Shown piece by piece: positions 1,458 to 32,038 of a DNA stretch of 32,547 bases. Numbering within the stretch: position 1 is the stretch's first letter; each line of letters opens with the position of its first letter. This stretch comes from a virus. Both the position numbers and the translations under genes were made by a program. Where the stretch lies: positions 1 through 32,547 of the IMG/VR virus record IMGVR_UViG_3300034374_006419; one strand, 5' to 3'. The notes below the pieces were generated by a model. That model made no database searches, had not been told where the DNA came from, and saw only the letters and a list, made by a program, of their open reading frames with translations.

Positions 1458-4400
1458 TAGAATACACTTAAAGTGACATTAGTATTAAAAGCATTTAACC
1501 TAAAGTTCCTGTTATTAGAATTGTTATAGAAGACTTTAATCTTAACATAAACATCCCTAAGATAAGGCTTTATAGGCAATGGACTATTGTAATCATTAAT
1601 CATATTAATTCTCCAAGTTCTTTCTCTTCTTACTACATTTTGTTGTGGAGTAAGAAGGGTTAAGGAGTTTTGAGTACTTTGGTAATCATTGTAAAGCAAG
1701 ATTCCTGTTATAGTCTCTAAAGGAATATCTATACCATTATTATCAAATACCTCTGTCCAAAACTCTAATGTATCAATACGAAAAGTAGGAAGTTTAGTTG
1801 CATCTGGGAAGTTAACAATAAACTCAGCTTCAGATGTTGTAGGATTTTTACCATAAAATTTACCATAATCTCCTTCATTATGTAAATAGACAGAATTGCT
1901 GGTATCAAAAGGATTAGCAGAAAGTAGCCTTTTACCAGTAGGAAGATATAGGTTAGGAGTAAAAGTATAGAATGATTCAAAAGCTTGAAGCATCTCATTA
2001 AACCCTATGGTAAATTTGTAAGTAATAGCTTGCTTGTTTTGAAGAGCTGTTATAGTACCACTTACTACACTAACAGCTAAAGTAGTCTGGTTAATAGATT
2101 CTACCTTATATACATTGTTTCCTATATAGAATATATCACCTTTATTTAGAACTTGTATAGAAGATGGTGATACATTGGTCATAGTATATATAGTAGGGCT
2201 ACCTGCACTTATGGAAAAAGTATCAAAGTTTATAGCTATCTTATTAAGAAAAGTCATGTAAGCCTTATTGTATACACTATCATAAACTCCATGTATACCG
2301 TTATTAAGTAAAACTTTATCTGTATCTAATATATCTCCTTCTAATTTCTTTCTAAAGAAGGCAGAAAGTCCTTTAACATCAGATAAACTTTCTAACATAG
2401 GACCTGCTTTAGATTCACCAATACGAAAGAATCTTTTAATCCTAGAATCAAAGAAATACACAGCTCCAGGCCCTGTTATTACAGAGTGTTGATGGAAGCA
2501 GCCATATTCTTTTGATAAGTAATCATATCTAGCTAGTATAGTACCTGTACCTACTTGAAAGATAGCTCCAGTAGCAGAATCAGGCAAAGCTGTTTGTTCT
2601 TGTGAACTTACTATAGATACTCCTCTGTCTTGCAGAGTAAAAAGTCTTTCTTTAAGATTGGTTATTTTATTTATAGGCCCATAATTACCTTCTAATGGAA
2701 GATAATTATTTACTAAGTATCTTCTCCAATTATCCTGTATTTCTCTATCAAATTTTTCTTCAGATACCCACACCCAATTAGGATGTTCTTCATCTGTTAA
2801 AAAGTTAAAAGGTCTAGGAAAGTATTTCTTAATATTGTTTTCTTGAGAGTATGCTCTATTATATTCAGGAGCCTCAGCTAAGAATTTAGCAAATTCAGGC
2901 CCAGCAGCTCCAGCAGCAATGTTTTGTATAGTAGCTGTAGTGTCTGAAGTAAAAACTTGCTCATTATTCCATAAATCCCCATGTCTGTAGGCTATGTTAA
3001 ACTCTGTTTCACAAGGGAAGCAGATAGCTAAAGCAGACATTCTTGTAGAAGCAGGGTCATAAATAGCTCCTAATCCAGAGGCAGATGCTATAGTTCCAGA
3101 AGAAGGATAGCTATAATCTTCTTTCCAATGGAAGAAAGTTAAAGTAGTATCGTAGTAGCTAGTGTAAATATCCCCATTATACACTTTAATAGATTGTGTA
3201 GAGGCTACTATATCTATAGGAAAGAAGTCAGATGCTGCTATATATTCATTGTTATATCTAGAAGCTCTCCAAGGCCCCCCATATTGTCCAGTATTATACC
3301 TACATAAAGCTACTATTCTAAAGTAGGGGTCTTTAGTAGTTTCATTATATAGAGGGTAATCTATATGACTATTATTAAAAGGAGTATCAGGTAATTGACA
3401 ACTGCCTCCAAATCTACAGAATAAAGACTTAGTACCAAATGATGATAACTCAAAGTCGGCATTACTTTTAAAACACTCAATACCTATATGATGGTAATCT
3501 AAAGCTAACATAGTAGGAGAGAAGCTAGAAGGTATAATACCTTCAATATCTACTTCTTGTTGGTTTAGTAGGGTTACTATATTTCTACCATTATCAAATA
3601 CTGAAGTATATTTAACTAAGAAAGCTCCTGAAGCTTTAGTGTTATTATCTACATAATCTGCCCAATAGCATACTCCTTGATTAAAAAGCTCTCTACCAGT
3701 AGAATCATTTACCCCTGTATAATAAGTATCAGCATCAGCTCCAGGTGGAGGGCCAGGAACAGTAGGTAAATCTCTAGAAAAAGAATAAAGAGATAACAGC
3801 TTTATATGCGTAGCATCATTAGTTTGATACTCATTAAAATCTAGTTCAGGGAATTTTATAATTCCTAATGAGTTTTCCCTAGTTACTCTAGTAGCAGCAG
3901 TAGTATCTCCATGTTCTCCTGGAACACCATAAATATAACCAAGACCTGTTTCTCCTTCACTAAAATCATTGTTTATAAAATGAACTGGGGAGTTATGGTT
4001 TGAGTCAGCAAAAGAAGCTAAAGATAAACAATCAGCTTTATCTCCATTTATACGTACTCTACTTCTTAAGGCTCCAAATAAAGCTCCAGTGCCTAGTCTA
4101 GTTTTATCTTTCTTTTGTCTTTCTACTCTTACTACTCTAAATCCTGTAATATCAGAAGGTAGATTAGTAAAAGTGAATTCTATACCAATAGACTTAGTAT
4201 TAATTCTTTTATCTCCTGCACCATCATCTAGGTATTCTGATAAGTCAAATGCATCTAAATCTCCAGCAGGAGCCTCCCAAGGTTCAGGTATTCTAATATC
4301 TGAAATCCATTTAATAAAGGATTCTTCTCCCTTGTCATTGTAAAATACTACACCATACCTATAAACTTCTCCTCTAGCATGACCTGCATATACTGTAGAC

Positions 4401-7173: not shown

Positions 7174-7458
7174 TTATCCCATGTTTTTAATTACTGAAAG
7201 AAGCTTCTTAAGATTTTCAGATTTTTCTTCTTTAACCATATCATCAGGAGGATTATCAGAAGCCATTGCAAAGGTTTCTACCTTTTTACCATCATACATG
7301 TAGTCTGAACCTCCTTCTTTAGGCATTTCTCTGACATCTTTAAATACTAAATAACCCCCATCTTTAAGCTCATAAGTGCAGATGTGAGTAACAGTATTAC
7401 CTGTTTTTTCTGTTTTTTCTACTTTAGTTTTGTAGTAACATTCGCTTATGTGTGACAT
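7174..7458 (-). CDS. Small protein of unknown function between ring genes, 94 aa
   Basis: I do not recognise this protein. The ATG at 7458 is preferred; a TTG two codons upstream would overlap the previous stop. It is hydrophilic: an N-terminal beta-rich part (residues 5-50) with two cysteines, then an acidic/lysine-rich C-terminal helix (residues 70-94, MVKEEKSENLKKLLSVIKNM). It sits between two tail genes with 1- and 2-base gaps, so it is almost certainly co-expressed with tail assembly genes. It could be an assembly chaperone or minor tail component; nothing in the sequence decides. Confidence 0.7.
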   Translation of the reverse strand: MSHISECYYKTKVEKTEKTGNTVTHICTYELKDGGYLVFKDVREMPKEGGSDYMYDGKKVETFAMASDNPPDDMVKEEKSENLKKLLSVIKNMG

Positions 7459-22891: not shown

Positions 22892-25408
22892 TTATTTTTT
22901 AATTGATTTCTTTTCTCCAGCTACAGGATTTTTAAGTTTTATTTTTTCTACTTCTTTTGCAGTATCAGATTTTAGTTTCTCAATGCGTTCTTGAGTTCTT
23001 AGTTTTTCCTTTTCTACATTTATTTTTTCTCTTTCTATAGCTGCTTTAGTAGAAAGTTCTAGTTTCTTATCTGCTTCTTTAGCAGATATTTCTCTATCTT
23101 TTTGGTAAAGCTTTTCTAGTTCTATAGGGTCAGGAATACCATCATTATCTAAATCCATGTTTTCCTTTCTACTATATGTTTGTATGGTAGCTATTTGAAG
23201 TCTTGTAGCATTTTCAGAATCTATCTTATACTTTTCAAGTTCTAGTTTCTGTCTCTCTATATTAAGTTTTTCCATCTGTAGCTGAGTCTCAGCTTGGACT
23301 TCTTCTTTCTTAGCTGCTAAAACTCTTTCCTCACTTTGTTGCTGCATTTGCAGCATTTCTTCTCTTCTACGTTTTAGAGTTCTAGCAGCATCTTGAACGC
23401 TTTCTGTTTTGACTAAGTTAATCAAGTCTGCTGCATCAGCAGTACCAGCAGCAATAGCTTGTTGGAAATTAGACTCTAGCATCTGTAGCAATCTTGCATC
23501 TTCAGAAGACCTAGATACTTGCAAGTCAAAGTCAGCTAATAGTATTGCTGAAATTTCTTCATCTGTAATAACTTCTTTAGAAAAGTCATCCATTAAGTAA
23601 GCTAATCTCTTAGGGTTCTTTTTTAGAATGCTAATACCTATATCTAGTATTCTTCTAAGACATCTCTCTTTGAAAAACTCGTTTTTAGCAAACCACCTTT
23701 CTGTAGTTAAGGCAGATTGGCTTACAGACCTTTCTACATTTCCTACTAATTCTGTAGAACTAATGGCTCCCTGTCTTTGCTGAGTTACTCCAGATACTAT
23801 GTCCATAGTTTGAACAATATTATTCAGTACATTATTAAGCACTTGTATAGGGCCACTTTGATTAGCAGACAGTCTATTAGGAGTAATAGTATTAAATGTG
23901 CCAGCAGACTGCATACCTTTAGGAGTCATTACATCTGCTGTAGGGTCCATAGGCATAAATGCAGTAGAGGTTACATAGTTCAAAAACTCATGTAAAGTCA
24001 TATTATCTGGTATCATACTAGTTGGAAACTGTACAATATCAGGTAACATTAGATTGACTAGTATCTGTCTTTTATAGTCAAATATGTTGTATAAGTAATC
24101 ATAAGGTTTTATAATATCCATCAAAGACTGGGCTCTAGAGGAATTTGTATTATAAAACTGAATTACTACAGGAGGTGGCTGTCTTGAAATATTATCTAAA
24201 GAATTAGATAAATAAGGTATAGGTTGAGCTTTTAAATATATGTTAGCTCCAATCTTATAACCTCTCCACCATTCATTAATCCATTCTATTTTATGAACTT
24301 CTTCTCCTATTGATGCATCAGGCTTATACTTTTGGTGTTCATACCTTAAGTTTTCTACTCCATTTTCATCAAGACTCTTAATAACCAGTACTTTCCTTTT
24401 AGACCTCCAGATACAATGCATCAGTCTAATGTTACCTCTTGCATCAAAGTAACTTGAAAACATAGGTAGGTCTAAATCCCCTAGAGGCATTACTTCTTGA
24501 ACTCTAGCAGTAGCAGAATCTGTAGGAATAGCTAATTCTCCTACATGACCATACATAGGATAAGTAAAATAAGGCTGAGGCCCTGAGTTATAACCTCTAT
24601 AATCTTCTAACTCTTTAATCTGTGCAGGAGTTAGCTCATCATGGAATAAATCTACTAAAGAAGATATAGTGTGATAGGTTACTTCTACTAAAGCCTCAAG
24701 ACCACTTTCATCAGTGGCATGCCCATTCATAATAGTAAATATTCTAGTAGGGTCACCTTTTCTTATAGAAATTTCTCCTCCTAGCTCTTCTATAAAGCAG
24801 TACTGCTCTGCTGCAATTAAAGCATCTTCAAAAGCTGCATCAAATACTCTGTCTTTGATATTGTAGTACTTATAAAGGTACTTAAGCAATTTATTAGCTC
24901 CTCTTTCTGCAATATCAAAGAAGGAAGAATTTGTGTACTCTTCTAATTCCTTTAATCTTCGTTCTGCTTTTTGAGGGTCATAATTAGGATTTTGAATCTG
25001 TTCTATAAAAAAGTTAATGTATTCTTTAGTCTTAAGCTCTTCTACTTCTCTAATACCTTCTTGGTCTACAGAACTTCTAATAACTCTAAAGTCAAATTTT
25101 CTTTTTATATGCTCACCTACCAATAGGTCAATCTTAGAATTACCAATACCTTTATGTTCCATTCTAGCTGGAAAAGTTCCTAACCCTAATCCATAAGGGT
25201 CAACAACCTTTTCAACATCATTCATATTTAGAATGCCTCTTTTAAGGTTATAGTTAGTAACCTTATTGTAGTAAGAGTTTTTAATTTGCCTGTTTTCAAA
25301 AAGGACTAATCCTTCAAAAGCATCTATATTATCTTTCTGCCATTTAGTTTTAGCCTTCTCTGAATCAGATACCATCTGACTAGGAGCTACAAATACCCTA
25401 TTATACAT
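22892..25408 (-). CDS. Portal protein, 838 aa
   Basis: The portal forms the dodecameric ring through which DNA is packaged and ejected. This gene starts one base after the terminase stop, the standard order, and its length fits the large portals of crAss-like phages. The body (residues about 20-680) has MLPDIVQFPTSMIPDN and SGVTQQRQGAISSTELVGNV segments, the latter like the helix/loop near the portal stem. From about residue 690 to the end it is a long charged coiled coil rich in Glu, Lys and Gln. Near residues 750-765 this coil is interrupted by MDLDNDGIPDPIELEK, an EF-hand or thrombospondin-3-like calcium loop. The core assignment is strong by context. Confidence 0.85.
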   Translation of the reverse strand: MYNRVFVAPSQMVSDSEKAKTKWQKDNIDAFEGLVLFENRQIKNSYYNKVTNYNLKRGILNMNDVEKVVDPYGLGLGTFPARMEHKGIGNSKIDLLVGEHIKRKFDFRVIRSSVDQEGIREVEELKTKEYINFFIEQIQNPNYDPQKAERRLKELEEYTNSSFFDIAERGANKLLKYLYKYYNIKDRVFDAAFEDALIAAEQYCFIEELGGEISIRKGDPTRIFTIMNGHATDESGLEALVEVTYHTISSLVDLFHDELTPAQIKELEDYRGYNSGPQPYFTYPMYGHVGELAIPTDSATARVQEVMPLGDLDLPMFSSYFDARGNIRLMHCIWRSKRKVLVIKSLDENGVENLRYEHQKYKPDASIGEEVHKIEWINEWWRGYKIGANIYLKAQPIPYLSNSLDNISRQPPPVVIQFYNTNSSRAQSLMDIIKPYDYLYNIFDYKRQILVNLMLPDIVQFPTSMIPDNMTLHEFLNYVTSTAFMPMDPTADVMTPKGMQSAGTFNTITPNRLSANQSGPIQVLNNVLNNIVQTMDIVSGVTQQRQGAISSTELVGNVERSVSQSALTTERWFAKNEFFKERCLRRILDIGISILKKNPKRLAYLMDDFSKEVITDEEISAILLADFDLQVSRSSEDARLLQMLESNFQQAIAAGTADAADLINLVKTESVQDAARTLKRRREEMLQMQQQSEERVLAAKKEEVQAETQLQMEKLNIERQKLELEKYKIDSENATRLQIATIQTYSRKENMDLDNDGIPDPIELEKLYQKDREISAKEADKKLELSTKAAIEREKINVEKEKLRTQERIEKLKSDTAKEVEKIKLKNPVAGEKKSIKK

Positions 25409-25409
25409 A

Positions 25410-27434
25410 TTATTCTATTTCAGTTTGAGGAGTGAAATGCTTCATCCAAATATCTTGATTATCTCTTTTTTGTTTAAACTTATCAAAATAAGAACCAGTT
25501 TTCTTTTTTAGCGGAGATTCATGGATAGATAAACGATTAAACTCTTGCAAAGTTACATCATACCAAGCTATCATTAACATAGCAGATACTCTATCAAAGT
25601 TAGCCCTAGGATTAGGATTCCATGCTATTAGCTCTTTTAATAAACCTACTGACCTAATAGTACTTAACATCAATTCTTCAGATTCTTCAGATATAGTTTC
25701 TGTTAACCATGCTTTTAAATACTCTAATCCCCTTTCTTTAACAGCTTTAGACATAATAATACCTTTAGAACTATTTGTATTAGGTCTCCAAGTATTTCTA
25801 TCTCTTAAGTTATAAGGAGTGTCAGCTAACAAATGTAAAGCTTTTTTCTTTTCAAAATGAGAGTATAAACCTGTAATGTTAGCTTCATACATAGCTGTAG
25901 CTTCATAGTAAATTATAAGCTTTCTACATATTTCGTAAAATCTTTCTGTGCTTTCAGGTCTTCCTGAGTATTCAGCTACAATCCTTCTGGTTAATCTGTC
26001 AAATACAAATATTGAACCTATAGATTCAGAAGCAGCAGAATCATACCTGTAAGGGTCAATACCTGCAATATATCTACCTACATTAATTTCTCCAGCATCT
26101 CCCAGTCTAGGAGTTTCATATATCTCTATTAAACCTTCTTCTGCTTTTTGTACAGGGTAATCTCTATAAGGAGAACCACTTTGAACATCTACCCACTTTA
26201 GAGAACCTTCTTCAAAATTAAGATGCCCTACACTATGCTTGTCTAACTCTATAGAGTCATCCATTTTAGAGAGTACAAGTTTTAACTCAGTAATAGGAAA
26301 AAAGAAAGAGTGGCTTTGTAAGAAAGCTTCTTTAGGAGATAAAGGATACTGAGTAACAGAGTCAATTTTAGCTTGCTGGTCTGCTCCTTGTTCTGCTCTT
26401 TTTCTTAAATCAAAAATAGACTGTCTGGCTATATCTTCTAAGGAATTACCAAAGTCATCTATCATTGTTTTTCCTTTCCATTCAGGATGCTCTTTGTTAA
26501 TATCTTTATAAGTACCAAAACGCATCCTAGTAGCTGGAATAAAGAATCCACATTGAGTTCCCTTAGAATCTTCATCCCATATATTATCAAATGCTAAAAA
26601 GTTGTACTTATCAGGATTAAAAAACATCTCTGCAAACTCCTGAGTACCACCTTCCATATCACCTCCAGTACCTTGGATAATAGGCACACCAATTAAATCA
26701 TCTCCATCTTTCCAACAAGGTTCTGATATATTATATGACTGTAATAAACCTGGCCATTTACCTGCCTCTTCAAATAGAAACAAGTTACTAGATTTACCAA
26801 TAGCTGCAAATGGGTTATCTTTAAAAGTAAAAGAATGTATCTCAGACATATATCCTGCCCAAGCTACTACACCATCTACTGTTTTCTTGTATCTAGCTTT
26901 TACAAAATCCTTGGTATTAGGATTTCTTTCCTTGCCCCACTCTGTATGTAAGTCTAAAAAGTTGAGGTCATCTAAAGACATCCTCATTGTATTCTCAGAC
27001 AACTGCGATTGGTAAGCACCTATAATACATTTAGCATTTCTATAAAAGCTAAATTCATGTGCAATAATAGCAGCAGATTTATATGAAAAACCAATACGTC
27101 TAGGCTTAACTAAAGCAATACCTTTCTGTTCTTTTCTAGCCTTTTCTACAAAAGTAAAATACTCTAAATCTACATCAGTAAATAAAGGAAACCCACTACT
27201 TTTTCTTCCAGTATTAGGATTTTTTAGCTCAATTTGAGTGTAGTTAAGATAAAAGTAATAAGACCCTGGTATGTACAGGTTACCATGTGTAAAGCCCTCT
27301 TTACATCTTCTAGTTTCTTCTTCCCAAAACTCATCAAACTGATATGTACCATAAGGGTACTTGGTATAAGTACCATGCTCTGTAAAGTAATGGGCAGCTT
27401 CTTGAAAATATTTAGGTGCTACACTAATCTTCAT
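25410..27434 (-). CDS. terL: Terminase large subunit (ATPase and nuclease), 674 aa
   Basis: The packaging motor cuts concatemers and drives DNA into the procapsid. The ATPase domain shows a deviant Walker A at 110-120 (KPRRIGFSYKS in place of the usual GKT/S), Walker B at 218-224 (LFLFEEA, with Glu-Glu) and a coupling motif at 252-258 (IIQGTGG). The nuclease domain has Asp460 and Asp465 in AGIDPYRYD, Glu518 in MYEANITG and Asp614 in ANFDRVSAML, an RNase H-like acidic set. It overlaps the preceding gene by 11 bases and is followed after one base by the portal. Full-length by all visible domains. Confidence 0.92.
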   Translation of the reverse strand: MKISVAPKYFQEAAHYFTEHGTYTKYPYGTYQFDEFWEEETRRCKEGFTHGNLYIPGSYYFYLNYTQIELKNPNTGRKSSGFPLFTDVDLEYFTFVEKARKEQKGIALVKPRRIGFSYKSAAIIAHEFSFYRNAKCIIGAYQSQLSENTMRMSLDDLNFLDLHTEWGKERNPNTKDFVKARYKKTVDGVVAWAGYMSEIHSFTFKDNPFAAIGKSSNLFLFEEAGKWPGLLQSYNISEPCWKDGDDLIGVPIIQGTGGDMEGGTQEFAEMFFNPDKYNFLAFDNIWDEDSKGTQCGFFIPATRMRFGTYKDINKEHPEWKGKTMIDDFGNSLEDIARQSIFDLRKRAEQGADQQAKIDSVTQYPLSPKEAFLQSHSFFFPITELKLVLSKMDDSIELDKHSVGHLNFEEGSLKWVDVQSGSPYRDYPVQKAEEGLIEIYETPRLGDAGEINVGRYIAGIDPYRYDSAASESIGSIFVFDRLTRRIVAEYSGRPESTERFYEICRKLIIYYEATAMYEANITGLYSHFEKKKALHLLADTPYNLRDRNTWRPNTNSSKGIIMSKAVKERGLEYLKAWLTETISEESEELMLSTIRSVGLLKELIAWNPNPRANFDRVSAMLMIAWYDVTLQEFNRLSIHESPLKKKTGSYFDKFKQKRDNQDIWMKHFTPQTEIE

Positions 27435-27939
27435 ACTTCCTAGTCCTTTTCTCTCCAGACCTTCTACTTGAACTAGAAGCTTTTTCCTTATTTACAGCAT
27501 CTTCTAAAGTAGAAAGCTGAGATACTAATTTAGAAGTGCTTTCTATAGTTTTTAAAATAGGAGGTAGAGATTTATTATCAATCTCTGTATCTGTTAAATA
27601 CCTAGCTACATCATCTATCTTACTCTTTACACTAGCTAAAAGCCTTTGTGTAGGGGTTTCAGACATTTCTAAAAATTTTTGAACAGCAGCTTTTAGTTGC
27701 TCATTGTTTTTCACTTCCCCTTTAAGCATGTCTTTAGAAACAAGTTCAATCCTTTTATGCTCAGGAAAGTTACTATAGGGACTTGCTGAATCATAAATAA
27801 AATAGATGTAAGCAAATTGCTTAAAAGCTAATTCCTTAGTTTTAGAAGTATCTTTAGCCCATAGAGCTTCAAACTCTGGGATTAGAAGAATAGCTTCATC
27901 AAAAACTACTTTGTTGTTATTTAGATTGAATATCTTCAT
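27424..27939 (-). CDS. Candidate terminase small subunit, 171 aa
   Basis: This gene directly precedes and overlaps terL, the classical place of the small subunit that recognises phage DNA and stimulates the motor. The product is largely helical (residues 20-60 and 80-150, with RLLASVKSKIDDVARYLTDT and a likely coiled segment KTIESTSKLVSQLSTLEDAV). It ends in a basic disordered tail, SSSSRRSGEKRTRKYED. No clear N-terminal helix-turn-helix is seen, which is why the call stays tentative. It terminates with TAG, showing that TAG is a real stop here. It overlaps the HU/IHF-like gene by 23 bases. Confidence 0.5.
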   Translation of the reverse strand: MKIFNLNNNKVVFDEAILLIPEFEALWAKDTSKTKELAFKQFAYIYFIYDSASPYSNFPEHKRIELVSKDMLKGEVKNNEQLKAAVQKFLEMSETPTQRLLASVKSKIDDVARYLTDTEIDNKSLPPILKTIESTSKLVSQLSTLEDAVNKEKASSSSRRSGEKRTRKYED

Positions 27940-28171
27940 TTTTCTTCATTTTATTGCTCCTTAATTTTTCAATCATTCTTTTATGAGGATAAAAAGTTCC
28001 TAAGTCTTTTATATATACAGACTTATAAGAATCTAAATCTTCTATATTTCCCTCTTCTATAACTTCAGATATGAATCTAGGCACACTTTTAAATATATCT
28101 TCAGCCTGGCCTAAAGTAAGACCAAGCTCTTTAGCTTTTTCTTGTAGTATACGTTTAAGAATTACATCCAT
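27917..28171 (-). CDS. HU/IHF-like DNA-binding protein, 84 aa
   Basis: Two N-terminal helices (KRILQEKAKELGLTLGQAED, then SVPRFISEVIEEG) are followed by a strand and turn, YKSVYIKDLGTFYPHKR. The DLGTF pattern matches the GFGTF signature of HU and IHF subunits. The beta-arm that follows is short, so DNA bending may differ from the bacterial proteins. IHF-like genes near the terminase are known in crAss-like phages. It is likely to organise DNA for packaging or transcription. It overlaps both neighbours (10 and 23 bases). A Lys-rich C-terminus (RSNKMKKNEDIQSK) supports nucleic-acid binding. Confidence 0.65.
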   Translation of the reverse strand: MDVILKRILQEKAKELGLTLGQAEDIFKSVPRFISEVIEEGNIEDLDSYKSVYIKDLGTFYPHKRMIEKLRSNKMKKNEDIQSK

Positions 28172-30008: not shown

Positions 30009-30189
30009 CTATCTTGGGATATACATTTATCTCTAAAAACCATCCAGCTTTAGTAGAAAAAATAAATTCAGTATAGTAATACTGCTCTTTTTTACTGTCT
30101 AAAACAAAATTAATCTTGTTCTTAACAGTTAAGAGACGTTCTAAGTCATCTCCAAAGAATAAAGTATTAAGCTGATTTATTCTGTTCAC
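29989..30189 (-). CDS. Small protein of unknown function with GTG start, 66 aa
   Basis: The only start in frame is GTG 30189; no internal ATG exists. It resembles its downstream neighbour in layout: a helix (LERLLTVKNKINFVLDSKKE) then strands with aromatic residues (YYYTEFIFSTKAGWFLEINV). The two may be paralogues of one small fold. It overlaps the upstream gene by 23 bases and the next by 20 bases. Function unknown. Confidence 0.55.
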   Translation of the reverse strand: MNRINQLNTLFFGDDLERLLTVKNKINFVLDSKKEQYYYTEFIFSTKAGWFLEINVYPKIDATKGI

Positions 30190-30625
30190 TATTAACTAGA
30201 ATTTCTCTGAGAAGACTCCAAGCATGCTGCTCATTAGAAGCTTCTACAGTGTGGTCTTGTTCTCTAGGGTCTTTTGGGTTTCCTACAAGTCCTTCATATT
30301 TAAACTCATATTTACCTTGAGCTTCTTTAGTAGGCTCTTCTACAGTATCTAGTTTATGCTTCCTAGTAATAGGATGGAAAATATAAAGGGCTTTTTCCTC
30401 AATATTAATAATAGCTTCATCATGTACTAAATAGTAATTCTGAATCTCATCTAGAATGTCCTCTTCATAAATCTCTCCCATAGATTCCTTAAACTGTTCA
30501 ATAATAACATTATTCACAAATCTAAGATTAGCCAATTCATTGTAAACTTCCATTAGTCGTCTACTCATACCTTCAGCTAAAGAATCAATTTTGTGGTGTA
30601 AAGCTTGTGCTTTTGTCTGTTCCAT
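30167..30625 (-). CDS. Helical protein of unknown function, first gene of leftward operon, 152 aa
   Basis: I do not recognise this protein. Residues 1-75 are helical with coiled-coil character (LAEGMSRRLMEVYNELANLR), residues 80-95 form strands (EEKALYIFHPITRKHKL), and the C-terminal part is acidic and helical. It is the first gene after the divergent non-coding region, starting at ATG 30625, with a Bacteroidota-like -7 element 26 bases upstream. This suggests the long leftward operon starts here. Confidence 0.65.
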   Translation of the reverse strand: MEQTKAQALHHKIDSLAEGMSRRLMEVYNELANLRFVNNVIIEQFKESMGEIYEEDILDEIQNYYLVHDEAIINIEEKALYIFHPITRKHKLDTVEEPTKEAQGKYEFKYEGLVGNPKDPREQDHTVEASNEQHAWSLLREILVNSEQNKSA

Positions 30626-30650: not shown

Positions 30651-30658
30651 CAAATCTA
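30651..30658 (-). promoter_or_regulatory. Bacteroidota-like -7 promoter element
   Basis: The minus strand reads TAGATTTG, an exact match to the TAnnTTTG -7 consensus described for Bacteroidota primary sigma factors. It would start RNA about 15-20 bases before ATG 30625. I see no good -33 TTTG at the usual distance, so it may be weak or chance. Confidence 0.4.
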
Positions 30659-30804: not shown

Positions 30805-30884
30805 CTCCATTGCATTACCTCGTTACACTTAGGGGAAGGTGTATTATTAAAGAGGAAACCCCTTTCTTGAGTTTATTGTAGTTA

Positions 30885-31007
30885 CCCCCCCCTATATTTA
30901 AGTTTGTAAAAATACCCCCCCCCTACCCCTGGGGGTTTTTAGTACCCCCCCGTACTATAAAATTTTTTGGTGTATGTAAGTGGGTTCCTATCATAAAACA
31001 TCCCCCC
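30885..31007. repeat. Cluster of poly-C homopolymer runs
   Basis: In AT-rich DNA, C runs occur at 30885-30892 (8), 30915-30923 (9), 30945-30951 (7) and 31002-31007 (6), mostly bounded by TA. A further CCCC-T-GGGGG at 30926-30935 is followed by TTTTT. The minus strand therefore carries four or five G runs. Only base counts are observed; assembly error in homopolymers is possible. Confidence 0.85.
30951..30962 (+). promoter_or_regulatory. Promoter-like motif CGTACTATAAAA for rightward genes
   Basis: Differs from the leftward CGTAGTATAAAA at 22397-22408 by a single base and points to the 69-residue gene at 31038. It begins at the end of a C7 run; AGTAC and GTACT flank that run as short inverted arms. 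Confidence 0.35.
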
Positions 31008-31037: not shown

Positions 31038-31247
31038 ATGATGTCTTTAGAAAACTTCAAAACAATGCTAGGCGTTGAGAAGATTGATTTGCTGAAAGGT
31101 AAAGGCAGAGCCTTTGCCAAAGTAGGCACACATCAAGTATTTGCTTCCAAAGACTTAGATACATCTAAGCAGATGTATGTAGTGTTAGGCAAGTATGATG
31201 CCTATTGGTTGTGTAATAGCAGCAACGTCAAAACTATACAGATTTGA
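31038..31247 (+). CDS. Small rightward protein, unknown, 69 aa
   Basis: I do not recognise this protein with certainty. Two ATG codons open the frame. The product looks like a small alpha/beta domain: SLENFKTMLGVEKIDLLKGK, then strands AKVGTHQVFASKDL, MYVVLGKYD and a final YWLCNSSNVKTIQI. I have a vague memory of similar short proteins in other Bacteroidota phages. It is the first rightward gene, followed at once by a strong intrinsic terminator, so it forms a monocistronic unit. Such a unit is typical of an early or regulatory gene, but that is inference. Confidence 0.7.
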   Translation: MMSLENFKTMLGVEKIDLLKGKGRAFAKVGTHQVFASKDLDTSKQMYVVLGKYDAYWLCNSSNVKTIQI

Positions 31248-31808: not shown

Positions 31809-32038
31809 TTGAGTTCACCTACAGGTAATGCTGGGGTGAACTCAATAACTCGACTAAGCGAGTATAAACAGTTGTTAGGCTTAGTGCGTTACCAATAGGT
31901 AGGTCAAAATAAAGTCAGGTGAAAGACTTTAAAACAACATAGAACTACAACTATGGTTTTATAAATGTAGTGTGTTGTATTTACCCGAAATACAGCATAA
32001 GTAAAAACAGTGGTTAAAGGACTGCAAGGGATTTTATT
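31809..32038 (+). ncRNA. Structured leader RNA candidate upstream of 148-aa gene
   Basis: Successive hairpins can be drawn: an 11-bp stem at 31809-31845; ACTCG/CGAGT at 31848-31863; TACC/GGTA at 31890-31901; TAAAGTC/GACTTTA at 31910-31931; AAAAC..CATAG with CTATG.GTTTT at 31931-31960; and a 9-bp stem at 31974-31996. Two alternatives compete with these: ACTAAGC (31853) with GCTTAGT (31879), and ACAACA plus ACTACA (31934-31949) with TGTAGT plus TGTTGT (31966-31978). No coding frame of note is present. Mutually exclusive pairing is typical of riboswitches or attenuators, but a stable AT-rich spacer could also give this by chance. Confidence 0.42.
31860..31872 (+). repeat. Direct repeat GAGTATAAACAGT, copy 2
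   Basis: Second exact copy of the 13-base motif, here between the ACTAAGC and GCTTAGT arms of a possible stem. If it were a promoter, RNA would begin within the structured leader. Confidence 0.6.

Follow-up and report, generated by a model that had tools for sequence, protein, structure and literature searches.

Judging from its gene content, the window (the whole stretch of DNA analysed, 32,547 nucleotides) is a fragmentary contig of a crAss-like phage (Crassvirales). It carries PHROGs matches 6681, 6547 and 11589 (TerL, portal, major head protein), its genes form two opposed blocks, and its TerL is about 35% identical to those of crassviruses; the first-pass annotation had likewise taken the DNA for that of a phage. 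TerL (25410-27434, -) and portal (22892-25408, -) lie in a leftward late operon. Late genes run leftward from 30625 and a small gene runs rightward from 31038, so the divergent setting that had been described is present. The first gene on the late side (30167..30625, -) encodes 152 aa and is conserved in every relative reaching that far; the first gene on the early side (31038..31247, +) encodes 69 aa and is replaced by a different gene in close relatives. Neither has an assigned function, and a homology search with the 69-aa protein found no relatives. A candidate late promoter-like box, TAGATTTG (30651..30658, -), which we take to fit the Bacteroidetes -7 consensus TAnnTTTG, precedes the first late gene by about 26 bp.

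Several further features were observed around the junction. The small early gene beside it differs between otherwise near-identical phages (the window; L010 and L011; L016 versus L017), and the switch point is the first G-run together with the TAGGNACCC block, a cassette-exchange point. About 0.85 kb into the early side lies a Pistol self-cleaving ribozyme (31848-31908, +; 63.7 bits). Relatives L015 (5839-5990, -) and L017 (5568-5721, -) carry Hatchet ribozymes of about 80 bits, some 0.6-1.1 kb from the array and in the same orientation to the early genes as the Pistol ribozyme of the window; a similar place near the array thus seems to be taken by different ribozyme classes. Two distant crAss-like contigs, G018 and G017, have tmRNA genes on their early side (loci L088, 2995-3398, - and L090, 9163-9522, +); such genes are also annotated in cr60, cr106 and cr50. 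On the late side, upstream of TerL, an 84-aa HU/IHF-like protein is encoded (27917-28171, -; PF00216 E=0.012, below the curated cut-off), and HU proteins are annotated in the corresponding operon of crAss001, cr85, cr106 and cr126.

The junction itself is marked by runs of C8, C9, C7 and C6 within 123 bases of the plus strand, at the positions first noticed, which read as G-runs on the late strand. The first run of this array, C6 (31002..31007), adjoins the early gene; on the late strand it reads G6 and then ATGTTT. A conserved block, GGGGGGATGTTTTATGA/TAGGAACCCACTTACATACACCAA (30967..31007, -), was recognised by comparison with relatives and with the phages DAC15 and DAC17; its slash lies between 30991 and 30990. 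The arrangement G7-TACTAAAAA-C5-A-GGGGTA-G9 (30915..30951, -), in which the G-run starts are 28 bp apart, has the layout common to most crAss-like junctions and is called the canonical element here; its plus-strand parts are C9 (30915-30923), G5 (30931-30935) and C7 (30945-30951). The sequence and its comparison with relatives identify C8 (30885..30892; G8 on the late strand) as the third array run. An inverted repeat, GGGG-TTTCCTCTTTAATAATACACCTT-CCCC (30832..30862, -), whose interior is conserved among relatives, forms the last member. The runs are flanked mostly by TA or TG on one side and by TA on the other, close to the TA borders described before. As had been noted, nothing comparable occurs elsewhere in the window, where the only other run of at least six C or G is a C6 at 3275-3280. 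In a first-order Markov simulation, about two runs of at least six were expected per sequence of this size and a run of nine appeared in 1% of simulations; a single run is therefore only a little out of the ordinary, but chance comes nowhere near explaining four within 123 bp. A 76.6-kb contig, identical to the window over 15.6 kb, has G or C runs of at least seven at this array only. A blastn search of the window junction against phage records gave no match.

Relatives were collected by a TerL scan, which yielded 24 loci, and a pattern scan, which added one further contig with the junction. The junction is wholly or partly present in 11 contigs (L008, L010, L011, L012, L015, L016, L017, L021, L025, L029 and L043), and L028, a more distant contig, shows it in weaker form. 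All 11 have kept late-strand G-runs in one orientation, mostly G5-G9, with varying number and length; the loss of runs among relatives, for which a check had been suggested, was not seen. The single-step spacing between run centres has a mean of 29.4 bp (s.d. 2.0, n=21), a descriptive value and not a test, from which the shorter gaps of 7-20 bp near the late end are left out. The first gap of the array measures 56-60 bp, about twice the single step, and L010 has extra G-runs at an unchanged step. At the two borders of the array, a conserved block GTAGGGGGGATGTTT...TAGGNACCCAYTTNCATACACC adjoins the early gene in the window's clade and a conserved inverted repeat of G-run and C-run around CCTCTTTAATAANACACC adjoins the late leader. 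Two contigs, L037 and L038, matched the interior of this hairpin but had no array and were set aside as unrelated. A structured RNA leader between array and late gene, where some arms look as if they could pair, was tested and also rejected (folding z-scores of -0.4 to -1.1 on the late strand, no Rfam match): on the other strand the z-score of the window junction was +0.4, Rfam gave no match at the junction, and folding against shuffled sequences gave no RNA-structure support for the inverted repeat at 30832..30862.

Run length does vary between related phages, from G5 to G9, and L025 and L043, which come from one sample and overlap by 150 bp, differ solely by G7 versus G8. To this extent the suggestion of the first-pass annotation that the homopolymers vary in length was borne out. 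Its main point, that slippage tunes promoter spacing, was not, because the spacing stays at about 29 bp whatever the length of the runs and the sequence between them. A phase-variable homopolymer, whose slippage would switch early or late genes by altering promoter spacing, is thus very improbable. The variation in run length would be a by-product, with spacing kept; the L025/L043 difference is a single observation from assemblies and could be technical; the window and L008 agree in all four run lengths; and most crAss-like phages have runs of no more than G4-G6, a length at which slippage would be infrequent.

We give the least credence to the runs working as G-quadruplexes or as a terminator hairpin, both raised in the first reading of the sequence. 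The strongest G4Hunter signal in the window falls on the array (-2.04 at 30905), but the loops between its runs would be about 20-50 nt long, and most other crAss-like phages have only short pairs of G4-G6, about 28 bp apart, which speaks against a quadruplex as the conserved feature. On the plus strand, GGGGG can pair with CCCC(C), and TTTTT comes next; however, no known transcript enters the divergent junction, and hairpin and T-run are not kept in L010 or in L012-L017. The protein-binding array listed among the first options is supported as a possible reading.

Comparison beyond the window's clade placed the array in a wider context. A scan of viral contigs with GTAGGGGGGATGTTT recovered the window's own family and, beyond it, G018 (121 kb, TerL identity 28%) and G017 (46.7 kb, TerL identity 27%), both distantly related crAss-like contigs that carry the motif at the corresponding junction. 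We define the junction element as two runs of at least four G, with starts 26-31 bp apart, on the late strand of the intergenic early/late junction upstream of the terminase operon; the window has this pair at 30915-30951, between 30625 (-) and 31038 (+). The common layout is G4-5, a short loop, C3-5, usually A, about 15 bases and G4-6, with G-run starts 26-30 bp apart. Of 24 crAss-like records, about 19-20 have such a G-run pair on the late strand of the junction; all 24 together have it at 18 further places, and it is often unique within its genome. The pattern GGGGN{21,27}GGGG, which was picked after inspection of several matching junctions, occurs at the late-strand junction of phi14:2, DAC15, DAC17, crAss001, cr85, cr128, cr116, cr106, cr115, cr53, cr60, cr4, cr118, cr271, Flavobacterium phage Fpv3, G017 and G018, and at no or few other places in each of these genomes. 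A C-run near the first G-run can pair with it, in the window as G7-TACTAAAAA-C5; this pairing is not invariant, as the arm is lost in L012, L015-L017 and crAss002.

In five genomes tested without prior inspection, the pattern lay strictly at the junction in four, and in all five if cr108 is counted. It is the only match in the genome, and at the junction, in crAss002 (92498-92528) and cr126 (50737-50769); cr50 (33161-33190) and cr113 (436-466) also have it at the junction, although in cr113 the early gene would lie beyond the record start. The only match in cr108 (7308-7340) falls within a small annotated ORF, with about 160 bp between it and the last early start codon. Because the tested genomes are related, very small chance probabilities for these matches are not to be taken literally. 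In cr131, cr273, Azobacteroides phage and Dulem virus 42, there was either no element at the junction or the junction was outside view. A stricter rule, GGGGN{12,26}CCACAC, describes cr4, cr115, cr53, DAC15, DAC17 and G017 but fails in cr106, cr118 and crAss001, and the G-run pair alone was therefore kept as the defining feature. The conservation of the junction element is well supported, and by its layout the window array is a local, expanded form of it. The element is not described in the literature searched; its novelty is provisional, because preprints and most subscription papers fell outside that search.

In DAC15 and DAC17 (Wulfhauvirus, Steigviridae, Crassvirales), two Bacteroides phages, the element coincides with a genome end. 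The annotated direct terminal repeat of DAC15 (1-1842; 1842 bp) was verified to be identical at both record ends. It ends in GGGGGGACCATGAGTTAAT, 13 bp past the second G-run (G6), and the next bases are TAGAACCCACACC; DAC17 has the corresponding arrangement with a repeat of 1839 bp, and in both phages the element lies within the last 47 bp of the repeat. Both share with the window a late-strand G-run pair at the early/late junction, here 27-28 bp apart, and the succession of G6, 13 bp and a TAG-ACC-CACACC-like block. At the corresponding place the window reads GGGGGGATGTTTTATGA/TAGGAACCCACTTACATACACC, which resembles the repeat end of DAC15 and DAC17, and contig L012 begins with TGGAACCC, at the base homologous to the slash position. 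We infer that the slash (30991/30990) corresponds to the repeat end of the two phages. In a weight-matrix scan of DAC15 for this cut block, the true site ranked second and not above shuffles, so the homology of the block rests on position and context; a second search pattern, built from the cut block, found no additional members. The two arrangements differ in that DAC15 and DAC17 have only two G-runs, both inside the repeat, whereas the window has one run before the predicted cut and the array after it. G017 may bridge them, since its canonical pair precedes the cut block and an extra G7 follows.

That the element lies at the end of the packaged molecule is supported for DAC15 and DAC17, and the sequences suggest the same for other crAss-like phages. 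The records of cr53, cr85, cr113, G018 and Fpv3 break at most 500 bp from the element, where about 0.2 such breaks were expected, although contig breaks near the array can equally come from homopolymers or strain-variable neighbours. The cr53 record starts at the second G-run itself and its ends overlap by 55 bases; those of G018 overlap by 29 bases. In NC_055889 (cr53_1), positions 1-27 are repeated at 101099-101125, apparently a 55-base assembly overlap left in. Within the window's family, contigs end at scattered positions around the array, and these ends were not counted as proof of a genome end. For crAss001, direct-terminal-repeat packaging was assigned from read coverage, with no coordinates in the text (PMC6235969). 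Headful packaging from a pac site was predicted for crAss002 (PMC8042965), which carries the element despite this prediction.

The cumulative GC-skew has its minimum at the element both in the window (31011) and in G017 (24816). Together with a motif repeated about 30 bp apart in one orientation, this would fit a replication origin, with the array serving a phage initiator in the manner of iterons where both leading strands diverge. Iteron origins of plasmids and phages likewise have repeats in one orientation near a GC-skew switch, but the repeat unit of the window is very short and no initiator is known for it. The position of the skew minimum is as expected for any divergent junction with G-rich coding strands, and an origin leaves the terminal-repeat end of DAC15 and DAC17 unexplained. 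A replication start, already among the first options for the locus, is quite unlikely on this evidence.

The function of the element has to be read from these comparisons. We tentatively favour, at somewhat less than even confidence, a genome-end element whose G-runs are recognised by terminase, because the site is usually single, adjoins the DAC15/DAC17 cut, keeps a spacing of about three helical turns and is multiplied in the window's clade. The junction in this clade would then be the end of the packaged genome. A phage protein, most likely the terminase complex, would bind the G-runs at intervals of about three helical turns, perhaps joined there by the HU-like protein encoded beside TerL, and the bound protein would position the cut that makes the DNA ends. 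In the window's clade, the cut block would have gained extra G-runs on its late side. Terminase sites built from repeats beside a genome end are known from lambda cosB and P1 pac, and short-repeat arrays lie beside the T7 terminal repeats. These systems share with the window a repeated short motif beside a cut site and a terminase operon, but their sequences are unrelated, and for the window recognition by terminase is predicted only.

The main rival to recognition by terminase is an early promoter, or a part of one, for a virion-packaged RNA polymerase, as in N4; it would consist of the GGGG-loop-CCCC hairpin on the template strand of the early genes near the genome end. Early genes of phi14:2 are transcribed by the virion polymerase (PMC8375218), and N4 promoters are short hairpins at the first-injected end (PMC4496689). 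In most genomes some 20-90 bp separate the crAss-like hairpin from the first early start codon downstream of it, the distance to the first late gene varying more, and in DAC15 and DAC17 the hairpin is at most 47 bp from the end and points inward. The likeness to N4 (Schitoviridae) lies in a virion polymerase combined with a small GC-rich hairpin that precedes the early genes close to a genome end (PMC4496689). It stops there: the sequence is unrelated, the N4 polymerase has a different fold, and N4 has three promoters with a 3-base loop, whereas crAss-like phages normally have one site with a loop of 3-10 bases and some have lost the hairpin. This loss weakens the case for a promoter, since crAss002 and about half of the members of the window's clade (L012, L015-L017, L043) lack the C-run arm and keep the G-run spacing alone. 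Moreover, distances to the early gene are longer in cr106, crAss002 and cr116, and the copy at the right end of the window would be parted from the hairpin if the predicted cut is right. By analogy with N4, a promoter is conceivable but rather unlikely.

Recognition by terminase and a promoter for the virion polymerase may both be true. It is conceivable, though unlikely, that a single ancestral cis-element of Crassvirales, a G-run pair about 28 bp apart and present once per genome, is at once the end chosen by terminase and the early start of the virion RNA polymerase, and that it was multiplied into an array in the window's clade. If so, packaging and first transcription would share one DNA signal. 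The human gut harbours crAss-like phages in very large numbers, and their exact replication mode and packaging mechanism were called undetermined in a review (PMC10136315). A short conserved junction site offers a direct handle on them: its position can be mapped, laboratory phages with altered versions can be made, and the protein that reads it can be sought with the site as bait. The element also suggests a point at which crAss-like assemblies may be linearised.
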